From: Candidatus Woesearchaeota archaeon
Lineage (GTDB): Archaea; Nanobdellota; Nanobdellia; Woesearchaeales; BM511
Direction: 5' to 3'
Assembly: GCA_018221135.1 (NCBI GenBank)
Contig: JAAOYB010000003.1
Location: 1 to 38,830 of the forward strand
Length of the DNA: 38,830 nucleotides
In this document: positions 10,403-22,710 of the stretch, one piece after another
Position numbering within the stretch: the stretch's first letter is position 1
Layout: every line of letters starts with the position of its first letter
Program-made: the position numbers and the translations under genes
Notes under the pieces: model-generated
Database searches by the model: none
Told to the model about the DNA's origin: nothing
Seen by the model: the letters and a program-made list of their open reading frames with translations, nothing else

Positions 10403-11605
10403 ATGAAACTATCAATGACAGACTTAATAAGATTACTCCTTCCAACTAATAGTACGAGAAGAGAACACTTAAGAAATCTCAAAAACTTTTTTGACACAAA
10501 AAATTATTGGAAGATAAAAGCATTGATAAAATCAAAAAAAGCAGGGGTTTCGTACGATTCTTTAAACACGAGCACAGATTTCTTGACTTTTTCGAATTAC
10601 CCAATACTAAACGTTGCCGTAGACGAAGAAAACACCAAGAAATTCGTTGAATTAGCAAACCAAATAATACAAGAAAAAACATACGAAGACGCGTATCAAA
10701 GATTCAAAAAAGAAGCAGAACAAAAAATTATAAGTCTTATAGCACCAAACATAAAAGGACTAGACACAGTCAAACTAGCAAGCGCGCTTCAATTAGTCTC
10801 AACAGAGAACACCCACATACTACTATTAGGAGACCCAGGCACAGGCAAAACAGACATTCTTAGAAGCTCAACAGAAATACACCCCAAAACCAGTATGGGG
10901 CTTGGTAGTGGGATAAGCAAAGCAGGGCTAAGCGTAGCGTTTGACGGAAAACAGATGATAAAAGGGCTTCTCCCTTTAGCAGACCAAGGAATATGTTGTA
11001 TTGATGAATTAAACCTAATGAGAAAAGAAGACAGAGCAAGCCTCTACAACGCCATGGAAAAAGGTTTCATAACCTATGACAAAGCAAACAAACACATACG
11101 CCTTGATGCCAGGATAAGCGTCTTAGCAACAGCGAACCCAAAAGGAGACAACTTTGTGGGTTGGATGACAGACACCCTAAAAAAACAAACACCTTTCGAC
11201 GCAGCTCTTCTAAGCCGCTTCCACTTAGTATTCTTAATCAGAAAACCGGACATAAAAGAATTCTTAGAGATAACACGTCAAATAATAAGACAAGAAAAGA
11301 AAAAAGAATCAATAGCGAATAAGAACTTCGCAAAAAAATACGTTGAGCATAGTAGAAGCATAGAAGTTGAGTTCCCAAAAACTTTTGAAAAAGAAGTTGT
11401 GAGTTTTGTTGAATCACTAAAAAAGAAAGAAAAAGATTACTTAGTAGACATAAGCCCAAGATTAGTCATAGGATTTATTAGGTTCTCAAAAGCTAGTGCC
11501 AGGATGAACTTAAGAAGCAAAGTTAATTACGCAGATATAAAAAAAGTCAAAAAAATCTTTGTTGAAAGCCTAGATATAAAAAAGAAAAAACCACTTGTAG
11601 ATTAA
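10403..11605 (+). CDS. MCM-related AAA+ ATPase with a short, non-canonical N-terminus
   Basis: GDPGTGKTDIL, KAGLSVAFDGKQMIKGLLPLADQGICCIDELNLMRKEDRASLYNAMEKG, LATANPKGD, LLSRFHLVFLI: MCM Walker A/B, sensor 1 and Arg-finger pattern. Confidence 0.8.
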   Translation: MKLSMTDLIRLLLPTNSTRREHLRNLKNFFDTKNYWKIKALIKSKKAGVSYDSLNTSTDFLTFSNYPILNVAVDEENTKKFVELANQIIQEKTYEDAYQRFKKEAEQKIISLIAPNIKGLDTVKLASALQLVSTENTHILLLGDPGTGKTDILRSSTEIHPKTSMGLGSGISKAGLSVAFDGKQMIKGLLPLADQGICCIDELNLMRKEDRASLYNAMEKGFITYDKANKHIRLDARISVLATANPKGDNFVGWMTDTLKKQTPFDAALLSRFHLVFLIRKPDIKEFLEITRQIIRQEKKKESIANKNFAKKYVEHSRSIEVEFPKTFEKEVVSFVESLKKKEKDYLVDISPRLVIGFIRFSKASARMNLRSKVNYADIKKVKKIFVESLDIKKKKPLVD

Positions 11606-12394: not shown

Positions 12395-14080
12395 TTATTT
12401 GTGTGCATATACGAATTTATAAACATTGCTTCTGACTTCATCAAGTCTTACAAAACCGAAACGCTCAAATTGAACAACGCTATCAAGCTTGGCTTTCTTG
12501 ATATTTTTCTCAACAAAACCGTTCTTAACGCTTACATCATCCATTAAGATTTCTGCTTTTATTAATTCATCACTTTTTTTTGGAAGCCAATGAATTATGC
12601 CTTTTCCTTTTTGTTTTTTGTAATCATCATAATATTTAGAGACAAAAACAAAACCCGTCTTTGTTTTCTTAAAATTAAGGCAATCCATCAAACGATAAAT
12701 GACACCAATCTTAATAGAATCATAATCTTTTTTCTCAACCAAGAAAACATCTTCTGTACTCATTTTTCTGCCCCCTTTCCTATCAGGGTGCAAATCGAGC
12801 TCGACATCTAAATTAGGCGCTCCTTCAATAACGATTTCTACAGGGTCTTCGATGAAAAAAAAGCGGTCTGATGAGTTATCAAGTATCCTTCTATTAATAC
12901 TAGCGATGACTGAGTAATCAATATTTGTTTGCTGTTTAGACAAACCAGCAATCTTAGATAATTCAACTAATGTTTCTTTTACAACACCTCTTTTTCTTAG
13001 TGCTCGAAGAGTCACGAGTCTTGGGTCATCCCAACCAAGAAACTCTTTAGCTAGTATTTTTTCTCTTATTTCACGTCCCTGAGTGATGGCACCAGTAATG
13101 TTGAAACGACCATATTGTTTGAACTCAATATGTCTAAAACTAAAAAGGTCAGCGATGTAATGCTGCAATTCGATTCTTGATTCGAACTCATTGCTTCTAA
13201 GAACATGTGTTACTTTGTTAAGACCATCTTCTATAGCGCTTTCAAAATCGTAAAGAGGCCATATCAAATACTTCTTTTTTTGCCTGTAATGAGACGTTTT
13301 ATTAATCCTGAAAATACTTGGGTCTCGCATAACAGCGTTTTTGTGCTTCATATCAATTTTTAGTCTTAACGTGCATTCACCTTCTTTGAAGTCTCCTTTT
13401 CTCATCTGAGACCAAAGACCAAGGTTTTTCCTAGTATCAAAACCTCTATGCTCACAGTCCTTCATCGCTCTACGCTTCGCACTGGTTTGTTCTTTTGTGC
13501 AAAAACAAACATAAGATTTATCGTCGTTTATTAATTTCTCTGCGTAACTATAATAAACATCCATGTGATCAGATGCAAAAATTGTTTTGTCAGGATTGAT
13601 ATCTAAGTAATATACGACGTCTATTTGTATTGCGTCAACAAATTCTTGTTCTTCTCGCTCGGGGTTTGTGTCATCAAATCGAAGAAAACACTTTCCCTTG
13701 TACATCTTTGCATACAAATAATTAATTAAGAAGCTAAGCGCGTGTCCAACGTGGTTGTATTTGCTTGGCTCAGGAGCCATTCTTGTAACTACTTTTCCCT
13801 CCTCAGCGTTTCTTAACGATGGAAGCTCACTTTTTTTGGTTTCCTTTTTCTCTTTAACACTACCTTGTTCTTCAAATAACTTCTTTTGTTTATCAGGAGA
13901 GTAACTATTTACTTCTCTTACTACTTCATTAATTATTTTGGCATGTTCTTTAGGATTAAAACCCTTAAATATCTTCATCAACGGCCCTATCACCGCACCA
14001 GGGTTGGCCTTACCTTTGAACTTAACCGCGTTCTCAAGAGCTAAGCTCTTAGCAAGGCTTTCTAACTCTTTTTTATCCAT
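12395..14080 (-). CDS. gltX: Glutamyl-tRNA synthetase, archaeal type
   Basis: MAPEPSKYNHVGHALSFLINYLYA, GKCFLRFDDTNPEREE; start placed at Met 14080 because a TATA-like TTTAAATA lies about 30 nt upstream; ORF track starts at 14098. Confidence 0.92.
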   Translation of the reverse strand: MDKKELESLAKSLALENAVKFKGKANPGAVIGPLMKIFKGFNPKEHAKIINEVVREVNSYSPDKQKKLFEEQGSVKEKKETKKSELPSLRNAEEGKVVTRMAPEPSKYNHVGHALSFLINYLYAKMYKGKCFLRFDDTNPEREEQEFVDAIQIDVVYYLDINPDKTIFASDHMDVYYSYAEKLINDDKSYVCFCTKEQTSAKRRAMKDCEHRGFDTRKNLGLWSQMRKGDFKEGECTLRLKIDMKHKNAVMRDPSIFRINKTSHYRQKKKYLIWPLYDFESAIEDGLNKVTHVLRSNEFESRIELQHYIADLFSFRHIEFKQYGRFNITGAITQGREIREKILAKEFLGWDDPRLVTLRALRKRGVVKETLVELSKIAGLSKQQTNIDYSVIASINRRILDNSSDRFFFIEDPVEIVIEGAPNLDVELDLHPDRKGGRKMSTEDVFLVEKKDYDSIKIGVIYRLMDCLNFKKTKTGFVFVSKYYDDYKKQKGKGIIHWLPKKSDELIKAEILMDDVSVKNGFVEKNIKKAKLDSVVQFERFGFVRLDEVRSNVYKFVYAHK

Positions 14081-14138
14081 GAAAGTCATAATAGGCACAG
14101 TTTATTTAAAAAACTAACTTATCTCACAGCTCAAAACT

Positions 14139-14147
14139 TTTATAAAT
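14139..14147 (+). promoter_or_regulatory. TATA-box-like element upstream of the Ile-rich leader ORF and ileS
   Basis: TTTATAAAT; 41 nt upstream of the leader ATG and about 180 nt upstream of the ileS ATG. Confidence 0.6.
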
Positions 14148-14179
14148 AAGTAAGAAATAACAAGACAAATTCAAGAAAA

Positions 14180-14224
14180 ATGGTAGAAACAAGAGGCGAA
14201 ATCATCATTTCTATTATTATTTAG
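14180..14224 (+). CDS. Candidate Ile-rich leader peptide MVETRGEIIISIII* upstream of ileS
   Basis: ATG GTA GAA ACA AGA GGC GAA ATC ATC ATT TCT ATT ATT ATT TAG; six Ile codons in the last seven positions; followed by hairpin CAACCA(14232-14237)/TGGTTG(14250-14255). Confidence 0.5.
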   Translation: MVETRGEIIISIII

Positions 14225-14320
14225 CGTAGGTCAACCAATAAAAATATAATGGTTGGCAAAAAACTGATAAGATATAGTAATAAGCCTTTTTATTAATTCA
14301 AAAAAACAAGATATTAGAAG

Positions 14321-17300
14321 ATGAGCGAAGAAAAAACAAATAAGTACGACGCGAAGAGAATAGAAGAAAAAACTATTAGTTTCTGGAATAAAAACAAGAT
14401 TTACGAAAAAGCCAAAGCAAAAAACGCTGGCAAAAAAAAGTTCTACTACTTAGACGGGCCACCATACACCACGGGAAAAATCCATATCGGTCACGCGTGG
14501 GGGAAAGCTCTTCGAGACAGTATTCTGAGATATAAGAGGCTGCAAGGATTCGATGTCTGGGACCAACCAGGGTTCGATATGCACGGCTTACCAATAGAGG
14601 TAAGTGTGGAGAAGAAGTTTGGTATTAATGATAAAAAAGAAATAATTGAGAAGTACGGCATGCAAAAATTTATTGAGATGTGTCAAGAATACGCGCTAGA
14701 ACAACTATACCCTATGATTGATGATTTTAAAAGACTCGGGGTGTGGATGAACTGGGACGACCCTTATATGACTATAAAAAACGAGTACATCGAAGGTGTG
14801 TGGTGGGCGCTTAAGCGAGCACACCAAAACAAATATCTCTATCAAGGAAAAAAAGCGATGTCGTGGTGTCCTAGGTGCGCAACGGCCTTAGCAAAGCACG
14901 AATTAGAATACGAAAACGTAACAGATGATTCTATCTTTGTAAAACTTCCAGTGGTAGGAAGAGAAGATACATATTTCATTATTTGGACTACTACGCCGTG
15001 GACTATTCCTTTTAACTTGGCAGTCATGGCTCACCCAGATTTCGAATACGTAGAAGCAAGAACCGAAGATGATGAGACTTGGATACTCTCAAAAGGGTTA
15101 TCAACAAGTGTTATTGGCGGCGTTGCTAATAAGAAATTCAAAGTAATAAAAACATACAAAGGAGAAAAACTGGGAGGCGTGCGTTACAAGCACATCTTCG
15201 AAGACGAAATTCCTTACCACAAAAAAATTGATGAAGAAAACCCAAAAACTCACACAGTCTTACTAACAGATAAGTATGTTGATTTAAGTGCTGGTACTGG
15301 TTTGGTTCACTGCGCCCCAGGATGCGGAGCAGAGGATTTTGAAGTAGGACGCTCTAATGGCATCCCTGCTTTTAATGAAATAGATGACCACGGCGTATTC
15401 AATGAGACCACAGGAGTTTTTTCTGGGTTGATAGCTAGAAAAGATGATAAGAAATTTATACAAAAAATAAAAGAGAAAGGTGCCCTCATAGAAAGCACAA
15501 AAGTAGACCACGAATACGCTCATTGTTGGAGATGCAAAACCGACGTGATTTACAAAGCAACAGATCAATGGTTCTTAGCAACCGAGAAAGCAAGAGACGA
15601 ACTAGTCAAACAAAACAAGAAGGTTAGTTGGGTTCCTGAATGGGCAGGAAACAAGTGGTTTGATAGCTGGCTTAGAAACCTCCAAGATTGGTGTATTTCA
15701 AGACAAAGATTCTGGGGGATACCCTTGCCGATTTGGAAGTGTAGTTGTGGGGAGACAAGACTCGTAGAATCCGGCGAAGAACTAAAAAAATTAACAGGAA
15801 AAAAACTAGATAACCTTCATCGTCCATGGATTGACAAAATCAAAATAAGATGCGAAAAATGCGATAAGATGACTAGTAGAGTAGAAGACATACTTGATGT
15901 CTGGCTTGATAGTGGGGCAGCTCCTTGGGCGACACTAGGGTATCCAAGCAACAAAAAATTGTATGAACGCCTAGGCGACGTTGATTTCATCTTAGAAGGA
16001 AAAGACCAAATAAGGGGTTGGTTTAACAGCTTAGCGTGTCTGTCTATGGTTTCTCAAAAAAAGATTCCTTTCAAAACAGTTTATATGCACGGATTCATAA
16101 ACGACTCAAAAGGCAGAAAGATGTCAAAGTCACTAAAAAACATTATTAGTCCTTACGAAGTAATCGACACGCAAGGCGCTGATACCTTAAGATATTATGG
16201 GATAGGAGGAAGCAGAGCAGGCCTAGATCTTAACTATAATTTTGAAGATATGAAAACAAAAAATAAGAATTTGTTTATTTTGTGGAACTTACAAAATTAC
16301 TTATTTGATCTAACAAACCAATTAAAAGTTAACCCAGAAAAACTAAAGGTTTCAGATTTAGAGATGGGTCTCGAAGAAGAATACATGTTATCAAAGCTTA
16401 ACTCATCAATAAGCTTAGTCACAAAGCTCTTTGATGAATACAGACTAAACGAAGTACCTTCTGTTATCGAAGAATTATTTTTGGAACTTTCAAGAACATA
16501 TATCCAGCTAGTCCGAGATAAGGCGAGTATAGGAAGTGATGAAGAGAAAAAAACGGTTTCGTACATTGTTTACAAAACATTAACTGAAACCTTAAAATTA
16601 TTAGCTCCTATAACTCCATTTATAAGCGAGGAAATATATTTGAATTTCAAAGCAGAATACGGCTTAAAAGAGGAATCTGTTCACTTAGTTGACTGGCCAA
16701 AAACAGATAACACAAAAATAAATGTTTCATTGGAACAAAGCTTTTTGGTTGCTAAAGAAGTAATCAGCGCAACACTATCTGCTAGGGAACGAGCAAACCT
16801 TGGAATAAGGTGGCCTGTTAAGAAACTAATTGTGGTCTCAAAAGATAAGAAACTAATAAGCGCAGCAAAGAAATTGCTTGGAGTTATAAAACAACAAACA
16901 AACGTAAAAGAAATTGAGTTTAAAGAATCTTTTAGTAAAGTCGAGTTCGAGATTAAACCAAACTATAAAGCGCTTGGACAAATCTTTGGAAAAGACACAG
17001 CGATTATAGGAGAAAAAATAAGAAGCGCTGATTCTAACAAATTAGTTAGTAGTATTAAAGAAAAAGGATTATACAAAATAGGAAAGTACGAGATAAAAAA
17101 TGCTCATATAGAAGTAAGCGAGAAAGTGAGTCTTCCGTATTTCATCGGTGATTTTAGATTTGGAGGTTTATACGTAGATTCAACAAGAACGCCTGAATTA
17201 GAAGCAGAAGGTTACGCCAGGGAACTTATGAGAAGAGTTCAAGTAGCAAGAAAGAATTTAGGCTTGCAAAAACTTGATGATATAAGACTATTATTAGTAT

Positions 17301-17476
17301 GTGATGAGAAATTCGAGAAGTTATTAAAGCCGCATAACGCGTTGCTTAAAGAAAAAGTAGGAGCAAAACAATTAGTGTATTTAAAAGACGAACCTAAACA
17401 CGCAGTTGATTACCACAAAACAGAAAAGATAAAAGACTACCAAATAAAAATATTGGTAGAAAAAATAAACAAATAA
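14321..17476 (+). CDS. ileS: Isoleucyl-tRNA synthetase
   Basis: FYYLDGPPYTTGKIHIGHAWGKALRD, DVWLDSGAAPWA, KMSKSLKN. Confidence 0.95.
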   Translation: MSEEKTNKYDAKRIEEKTISFWNKNKIYEKAKAKNAGKKKFYYLDGPPYTTGKIHIGHAWGKALRDSILRYKRLQGFDVWDQPGFDMHGLPIEVSVEKKFGINDKKEIIEKYGMQKFIEMCQEYALEQLYPMIDDFKRLGVWMNWDDPYMTIKNEYIEGVWWALKRAHQNKYLYQGKKAMSWCPRCATALAKHELEYENVTDDSIFVKLPVVGREDTYFIIWTTTPWTIPFNLAVMAHPDFEYVEARTEDDETWILSKGLSTSVIGGVANKKFKVIKTYKGEKLGGVRYKHIFEDEIPYHKKIDEENPKTHTVLLTDKYVDLSAGTGLVHCAPGCGAEDFEVGRSNGIPAFNEIDDHGVFNETTGVFSGLIARKDDKKFIQKIKEKGALIESTKVDHEYAHCWRCKTDVIYKATDQWFLATEKARDELVKQNKKVSWVPEWAGNKWFDSWLRNLQDWCISRQRFWGIPLPIWKCSCGETRLVESGEELKKLTGKKLDNLHRPWIDKIKIRCEKCDKMTSRVEDILDVWLDSGAAPWATLGYPSNKKLYERLGDVDFILEGKDQIRGWFNSLACLSMVSQKKIPFKTVYMHGFINDSKGRKMSKSLKNIISPYEVIDTQGADTLRYYGIGGSRAGLDLNYNFEDMKTKNKNLFILWNLQNYLFDLTNQLKVNPEKLKVSDLEMGLEEEYMLSKLNSSISLVTKLFDEYRLNEVPSVIEELFLELSRTYIQLVRDKASIGSDEEKKTVSYIVYKTLTETLKLLAPITPFISEEIYLNFKAEYGLKEESVHLVDWPKTDNTKINVSLEQSFLVAKEVISATLSARERANLGIRWPVKKLIVVSKDKKLISAAKKLLGVIKQQTNVKEIEFKESFSKVEFEIKPNYKALGQIFGKDTAIIGEKIRSADSNKLVSSIKEKGLYKIGKYEIKNAHIEVSEKVSLPYFIGDFRFGGLYVDSTRTPELEAEGYARELMRRVQVARKNLGLQKLDDIRLLLVCDEKFEKLLKPHNALLKEKVGAKQLVYLKDEPKHAVDYHKTEKIKDYQIKILVEKINK

Positions 17477-21119: not shown

Positions 21120-21162
21120 AATAATAATGCTTAAATATTTAGCAATAATCCTTTTTTTCTAG

Positions 21163-22710
21163 ATGGGTTTTAAGGGGCAAGTAATAAGTGGTAGTTTCGG
21201 GGAAATCTTAATAAGGCAAAAAAGTGACTGTGAGATAGAAATAGGAGAAATCTTGGTTAGTGAATCAAAAAAAAAAAAGTCATTACTCCAAGTTTACGAC
21301 CTTGTTTTTAGTTCTCAGATATCAAAACAAAATCTTGAATTAATAAGTGGGCTGAGCTTAGAAGAAGATGAAAAACTGGAGTTCTTCGAGCCGCATCTTC
21401 GAAACTACACATTAGCACTAGCAAAGAACATGCTGAGCTTAAAAGACGAGAAAATAAGTATTAGTAAGTCTCTGCCAGGATTCTTTAGTAATGTAAGAGA
21501 AGTAAGAAAAGAAGATTTAAGCTTTCTCTCAACGCCAAAGAACCCTTTATTTTTTGGAAAACTAAGAAGCGGATCAAAAACATTGGACGTCGACGTCTTC
21601 TTAGACGGAATAGATGTTTTTTCTCACCACGTATTAATACCTGCGACTACGGGTAGGGGTAAGAGTAATCTTACAAGCAACATATTGTTTAGTTGCGTTG
21701 ACAAGGATTACGTCGGAACGCTCGTTCTTGACCCGCACGACGAGTATTATGGTAGGAATGGTCTTGGCTTAAAAGACCACCCAAGAAAAGAACGAGTAAT
21801 ATATTATACTTTCGAGGCTCCCCCCGTGGGTGCTAGGACTCTAAAAATAAATTTGGAGCAAGTAAGACCCACTCATTTTAATGGGGTTCTTGATTGGAGC
21901 ACGCCACAAAAAGATGCGATAAGCGCTTATCATAAAGCTTACGGTGATAAATGGGTAGAAGCAGTGATATTAGAAAAACCTCTAAAAACCGAGTTTAATG
22001 AGGCAACTATTAGCGTTGTTAAAAGAAGAATAACGAATTTGTTAGACTTAGAATACACTGGTTCTGAACTGATTTGTAATGGGGTATTTGATTTTTCATC
22101 AGGGAAAACCACTATTAACGATATCTGTGACAAGCTAGAAGAATCATGCACAGTAATAATTGATACTAGTTGTTTTAGTGGCTCACTTGAGATATTAATT
22201 GGTAGTTTGGTAACAACAGAAGTCTTTAATCGCTATAAGCGCTACAAGACAAAGGGGTTGTTAAAAGACAAACCTGTTATTAGCATTGTCATCGAAGAAG
22301 CGCCAAGAGTCTTAGGTAGAGAAGTCTTGGAGAAAGGAAGCAACATATTCTCAACTATTGCAAGAGAAGGCAGAAAGTTCAGAGTTGGACTTCTTGCTAT
22401 CACTCAACTTCCAAGCCTGATTCCTAGGCAAATACTGGCTAATATGAACACAAAAATAATATTAGGAATCGAGATGGCGCCTGAGCGAGCCGCGATAATT
22501 GAGAGCGCAAGCCAAGATTTGAGCAGTGATAACCGCGCCATCGCCTCGCTTGATAGAGGAGAAGCAATAATCACTAGTAATTTTAGTCGTTTCGCAACAC
22601 CAATAAAAACACCACTATTTAGCAAGTTAGTAGAAGAACTTAAAAAAACAAAAAATAATAAAGAAGAAAACACGAAAAAGAATTATTTTGGGATAAAAGG
22701 TGCTGATTAG
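21163..22710 (+). CDS. herA: HerA-type FtsK-like DNA translocase/helicase
   Basis: [20 protein letters not shown] (Walker A), [27 protein letters not shown] (Walker B), [40 protein letters not shown]. Confidence 0.87.

Follow-up and report, generated by a model that had tools for sequence, protein, structure and literature searches.

Candidate amino-acid-specific leader peptides upstream of aminoacyl-tRNA synthetase genes in Woesearchaeales

The isoleucyl-tRNA synthetase gene (ileS) of a woesearchaeal genome is preceded by a short open reading frame (ORF) that ends in a cluster of isoleucine codons. On comparative grounds, this ORF appears to encode an amino-acid-specific leader peptide controlling ileS in cis, with ribosome stalling that depends on tRNA charging raising expression of the gene; we put the probability of this reading at roughly 85%. 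An initial annotation of the locus had proposed that Ile-tRNA charging tunes ileS, and the comparisons described below support that proposal, the decisive addition being the presence of cognate leaders at sibling synthetase genes.

The stretch of DNA analyzed here (the window, 38,830 nt) comes from G000, a member of the Woesearchaeales (DPANN) with a genome of 1.05 Mb. Within it, gltX (12395-14098) and ileS (14321-17476) are divergently oriented, and the elements of the putative leader lie between them:

14139-14147, plus strand: perfect TATA box TTTATAAAT, recognized from the sequence 41 nt 5' of the leader ATG; putative leader promoter.
14180-14224, plus strand: leader ORF, read from the sequence as MVETRGEIIISIII and a stop, 14 codons with six Ile; candidate Ile-tRNA sensor.
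14201-14221, plus strand: putative regulatory codons I-I-I-S-I-I-I (ATC ATC ATT TCT ATT ATT ATT), followed by TAG.
14230-14257, plus strand: hairpin after the stop, with arms 14230-14237 (GTCAACCA) and 14250-14257 (TGGTTGGC); z -2.4, p 0.025.
14264-14282, plus strand: 3' side of a predicted pairing with the Ile codons, in which 14274-14282 (ATAGTAATA) stands opposite 14212-14220 and CTGA at 14264-14267 opposite 14221-14224.
14284-14291, plus strand: GCC-T5, of which 14284-14290 could pair with leader codons 14191-14197 (AAGAGGC) in a predicted fold.
14321-17476, plus strand: ileS, isoleucyl-tRNA synthetase (TIGR00392, E 8e-257); putative regulated gene.

The elements named by the initial annotation, a TATA box at 14139, an ATG 41 nt further on and a 14-codon ORF with six Ile codons, are all present in the sequence. 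The hairpin that it placed 3' of the ORF is there as well, slightly longer than claimed, as are TAATAA (14278-14283) and the T-run, a T5 at 14287-14291. Three other observations concern the surrounding genes. The listed GTG start of gltX_arch (minus strand) at 14098 is probably too far upstream; gltX probably starts, leaderless, at the ATG at 14080, which is preceded by a perfect TATA box at -30. A 400-aa protein encoded at 10403-11605 (plus strand) matches an MCM-type ATPase domain far under the family cut-off. Finally, a tiny ORF at 21127-21162 (plus strand; MLKYLAIILFF, then stop), with a perfect TATA box at -40, ends directly 5' of a 515-aa ORF that begins at 21163.

The upstream regions of ileS were collected from relatives with about 45-72% IleRS identity, 172 distinct regions in total, and were searched for short ATG ORFs with at least 4 Ile among the last 9 codons. 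The first 134 distinct regions contained 16 such ORFs, as against a mean of 1.47 and a maximum of 6 in 200 dinucleotide shuffles, and their reverse strands contained one. All told, leaders with clustered Ile codons precede ileS in at least 24 of the 172 regions, with S-I-I-I-stop as the typical ending; they span at least 12 families of Woesearchaeales, among which IleRS identity is near 50%. The N-termini are unrelated while the Ile-rich ends are shared (MNKLLIVQIIISIIIIA, MRTIASLIISIIII, MKIEKGIIISIIV, MFSDNIVVSIIII and MNQNATGIISIIII), and further examples include MPFGVAYSIIIM, MATSITNAGIISTIII, MKNIFINIISMIIIS, MSADLIQLQISVIII and others, along with one found by its position (MFHKKTKEVSPVIASSLII) and one from a genome of 55% GC (MLIARGTDAGSIIIIR). 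A short Ile-codon ORF, ending in S-I-I-I or a close variant, has thus been conserved despite nucleotide divergence. It is not universal: counterparts precede ileS in at least 23 related regions, the majority of Woesearchaeales ileS genes are without one, and G001, the closest relative by IleRS (72%), has none.

Once the pattern was fixed, 40 further places, corresponding to 38 distinct regions, were fetched as a held-out set. Three of these regions carried new Ile leaders (MRQTIIANISIIIIS, MHMHIKNKNIISIIIIA and MKQGMTQKNATSFIGNSIIIS), and these three were the only short ORFs in the held-out regions with a TATA box at -33 to -28. The initial annotation had cautioned that AT-rich DNA favors ATT codons by chance, in which case the ORF need not be translated at all. 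The intergenic DNA is indeed AT-rich, and the shuffled sequences show that about 1.5 Ile-run ORFs are to be expected per 134 regions; the excess over the shuffle maximum, the near absence of such ORFs from the reverse strand, the held-out replication, the 55% GC member and the cognate Val, Thr and Leu leaders described next make this explanation extremely unlikely.

Similar leaders, specific for other amino acids, are found before other synthetase genes. Seventeen genomes were picked solely because they have an Ile leader, and the residue forming the tail runs of short ORFs was scored upstream of their other synthetase genes. Val tail runs were found before valS in 5 of 6 cases (MFKTVVVVVVG, MICVVVVVA, MRLAKDHVTAVGVVVVA and MSAYVVVVVG, the last from the window's own genome), Thr runs before thrS in 5 of 7 (for example MVVNNIFETQVLTTTTTTA) and Leu runs before leuS in 5 of 6 (for example MKLNGLDLLLLLVL). 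Over all the non-Ile synthetases tested, 16 of 23 tail runs were cognate (permutation p 5e-6). In G000 itself, MSAYVVVVVG-stop lies 54 nt 5' of valS (contig C1 near 41286, minus strand; L192), and its ATG is preceded by a TATA box at -40; thrS of this genome has no such leader, and its leuS is cut by the contig end. No convincing leader was seen before hisS, tyrS, trpS or serS in the 17 genomes, a cognate run being scored in one of three serS cases, where the ORF MKYKSISGSSI passed the run test. A likely Phe leader, MDTYVVSFNHIFFFI and a stop, is located 134-86 nt 5' of pheS at L352 (G137), with a strong hairpin after the stop and a TATA-like box about 30 nt upstream.

A pattern scan over 371 genomes approached the same association from the side of the peptide. 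The Thr pattern was an ATG ORF ending in a Thr run, Ala and stop, and 30 loci with this pattern were checked. All seven of the ORFs that also had a TATA box at -29 to -32 lie upstream of a ThrRS match, which at one of them (L415) is partial and about 225 nt away. Likewise, every ORF with an ATG that ends in VVVV, G or A, and stop, and that lies outside other genes, precedes valS. Matches to the Val pattern away from valS (L289, L308 and L310) were rejected as antisense or out-of-frame within genes. Leader peptides likely extend past Woesearchaeales: among 29 regions from other orders of the class there was one Leu leader, MQNNLLLLLL-stop at L347 (G389), 92-59 nt 5' of leuS with a TATA-like box and a hairpin after the stop. 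No leaders were found in a small sample of other archaea (Methanobrevibacter, Methanosarcinales, Methanomassiliicoccaceae, Lokiarchaeota, Sigynarchaeum, Halobacteriales and Pacearchaeota).

The leader ORFs share a characteristic promoter position. Of 37 leaders, 28 have a perfect TATA box between -46 and -24 of their ATG, against a background of 5.5%; the positions peak sharply at -30/-31, and perfect boxes have no fixed place relative to the synthetase start. The peak suggests that the leader begins the transcript and would be translated from a leaderless mRNA. Motifs resembling a Shine-Dalgarno (SD) sequence are found at 20 of the 37 synthetase starts (background 10%) and at only 2 of the 37 leader starts, as expected if the synthetase genes are read from a longer RNA. 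In the window, where the TATA box is at -41, the mRNA would have about 11-14 nt 5' of the leader ATG and so be nearly leaderless; ileS there has no clear SD.

The peak at the leader weakens the suggestion, made in the initial annotation, that the true promoter lies just before ileS, and leaves a weaker second promoter as a possibility. TATA-like boxes (7 of 8 matches) before the synthetase start are modestly enriched (16 of 37, against a background of 17%), and some species may have a second promoter that bypasses the leader. Perhaps one such promoter is ATATATAAAC, which resembles a TATA box and stands directly 3' of the 3' arm in several ileS leaders.

A hairpin directly after the leader stop is significant over 20 ileS leaders (Fisher p 7e-6). 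In the Val and Thr leaders and some of the Leu leaders it takes in the stop codon, and its 5' arm is made up of the last codons. Most of the Ser-type ileS leaders also have a pairing between TTTCTATCAT, part of the codon run, and ATGATAGAAA, located 28-37 nt past the stop; it encloses the hairpin. Taken over the ileS leaders, this codon-run helix gives Fisher p values of 2e-5 and 6e-4, and L132 and L149 carry matching changes on both of its strands. The three held-out leaders have the corresponding pairing of TTCTATC with GATAGAAA 28-34 nt past the stop (individual p 0.014, 0.084 and 0.074). Duplex-energy tests of the codon strand against downstream sequence were low-powered for single sequences, and helix tests were used in their place; alignment with MAFFT put the 3' arm out of register in some sequences.

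For the window, both the minimum free energy and centroid folds of 14180-14335 pair 14212-14220 with 14274-14282 around the hairpin (z -1.87), and the codon-run helix by itself is not significant in this single sequence (p 0.69-0.80). The TTATTA/TAATAA switch put forward in the initial annotation thus finds partial support: its general topology, with the codon run pairing downstream around the hairpin, is conserved in relatives, and in the window it stands as a predicted fold only. The folds form one nested structure with no conserved competitor, and mutually exclusive terminator and antiterminator hairpins of the classical trp type were not found. GCC-T5 (14284-14291) may be a terminator-like base of the modeled leader structure, a tentative assignment because T-runs are not significantly enriched family-wide: T5 or longer is present in 6 of 20 Ile leaders (2.9 expected) and in 8 of 17 others (6.4 expected). 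Of the 17 Val, Thr and Leu leaders (L183-L228), 10 carry a separate motif, CATYG (often TCATTGT), in the first 30 nt past the stop, against 0.7 expected; none of the 20 Ile leaders has it.

The inverted repeat formed by TTTCTATCAT and ATGATAGAAA might be read instead as a DNA operator or as part of a second ileS promoter (BRE/TATA), with the Ile codons a by-product. The modest enrichment of TATA-like boxes before the gene would fit, as would the TATA-like sequence directly after the 3' copy in several species. We consider this very improbable: the Val, Leu and Thr leaders differ in nucleotides and share the logic, Ile runs are kept in leaders that lack the inverted repeat (L021, L035 and L151), and changes after the Ser codon fall mainly at third codon positions.

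Codon choice within the leaders is also distinctive. ATA makes up 12.6% of the Ile codons in leaders and 39.9% of those in ileS genes (p 1.4e-9), an avoidance that would fit a sensor for the charging of a single tRNA-Ile species. All 17 Ser-type leaders use TCT for the Ser that precedes the Ile run, and the sequence NTTCT before the run is invariant even where no pairing partner is visible (L021, L035 and L122). An invariant Ser of this kind might mark a nascent arrest peptide ending in S-I-I-I, with the peptide itself, and not tRNA-Ile charging, as the stalling signal. We regard this as very unlikely, since the amino acid of the run (Ile, Val, Leu or Thr) agrees with that of the synthetase encoded downstream, an agreement not required of an arrest peptide, and since in most species the conservation of TTCT is explained by pairing with a downstream AGAA.

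The mechanism that we infer for a charging-sensitive leader is as follows. Transcription would start near the leader ATG, and the first ribosome would load onto the leaderless, or nearly leaderless, mRNA and translate the 14 codons. When tRNA-Ile is charged, the ribosome would pass the Ile codons, stop and leave, whereupon the RNA of the codon run and stop would fold into the hairpin structure, lowering ileS expression. When tRNA-Ile is uncharged, the ribosome would stall on the Ile codons and cover the 5' strand of the structure, and ileS expression would rise. Such a direction of response, with higher expression when the cognate tRNA is uncharged, would be sensible for a synthetase gene.

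The output of this putative switch would probably be mainly premature transcription termination rather than a change in ileS translation, perhaps aided by FttA once the ribosome has left; exclusion of FttA by a coupled ribosome is an existing hypothesis (PMC11616081, PMC8116511). Termination is favored because no overlap of the hairpin or the helix with the SD or start codon is apparent, and the outer helix in most cases ends before them. Against termination, U-tracts are not enriched. The same sensor might instead have a translational output, in which stalling alters RNA folding or reinitiation and ileS is translated more, with no termination involved. The SD motifs at over half of the synthetase starts point in this direction, as do the missing family-wide U-tract and the distance from leader stop to gene, often only 40-100 nt. 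Set against these are the position of the conserved structure, apparently clear of the SD and start codon, and the window ileS, which has no clear SD to hide; we judge a translational output the less probable of the two, though a real contender.

If the leaders work as proposed, amino-acid-specific attenuation exists in a second domain of life, built on archaeal promoters, leaderless mRNAs and archaeal termination, and it would give archaeal transcription-translation coupling a natural regulatory role. These small DPANN genomes probably belong to host-dependent organisms living on imported amino acids, and the leaders show how such amino acids may be sensed. Ribosome stalling, known as a strategy of bacteria, is probably how these archaea detect a shortage of amino acids.

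Ribosome-mediated attenuators operate at the trp, his, ilv, thr and pheST leaders of Proteobacteria. The present leaders resemble them in having a short upstream ORF rich in cognate codons that is expected to report tRNA charging through stalling. They differ in that no terminator/antiterminator pair and no shared U-tract was found, and in that the codon run itself supplies one strand of the putative regulatory hairpin, so that a stalled ribosome would block it directly. The Ile leader would work like a bacterial leader-peptide attenuator while falling outside the classical definition, because it has neither an antiterminator nor a common U-tract. The T-box riboswitch controls ileS, valS, leuS and thrS in many bacteria, also according to tRNA charging; the T-box binds tRNA directly, whereas the sensor here would be a translated codon run, and an Rfam search of 13900-14600, read up to E 1, gave no T-box family and no relevant match.

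Closer parallels come from Actinobacteria, where runs of branched-chain codons near the stop of ilvB leaders overlap the terminator hairpin and where, in the LEU element of leuA, the run of Leu codons pairs with a downstream segment to make a base stem (PMC1262725). The likeness lies in a codon run near the stop that overlaps a hairpin or itself pairs downstream. Those elements are bacterial and precede biosynthesis operons, whereas the present leaders are archaeal, precede synthetase genes, and have TATA promoters, predicted leaderless starts and a downstream partner that is not the SD. Synthetase genes are controlled by leader peptides in bacteria too, with His leaders before hisS/hisZ in bacilli and leaders at leuS and trpS in Streptomyces (PMC2965389, PMC1262725). 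Those cases are bacterial with intrinsic terminators; the set described here, with none found for His, Tyr or Trp, comprises Ile, Val, Leu, Thr and probably Phe in essentially one archaeal order. A 2010 survey stated that Proteobacteria and Actinobacteria were the only groups with known leader peptides, and added Firmicutes to them (PMC2965389). Full-text searches of open-licence papers, in which absence is no proof, returned no archaeal precedent for a cognate-codon leader peptide, and one tool paper includes archaea when it speaks generally of upstream ORFs (PMC10219788). It is quite probable, judging by the comparative evidence, that these leaders are the first case of amino-acid-specific leader-peptide attenuation in Archaea: an Ile, Val, Leu, Thr and possibly Phe set in Woesearchaeales, joined by a likely Leu case from another order of the class, in which the leaders are leaderless and the codon run is the 5' strand of a repressing hairpin, so that a stalled ribosome would switch the gene on by occlusion, without the antiterminator of the classical bacterial systems.
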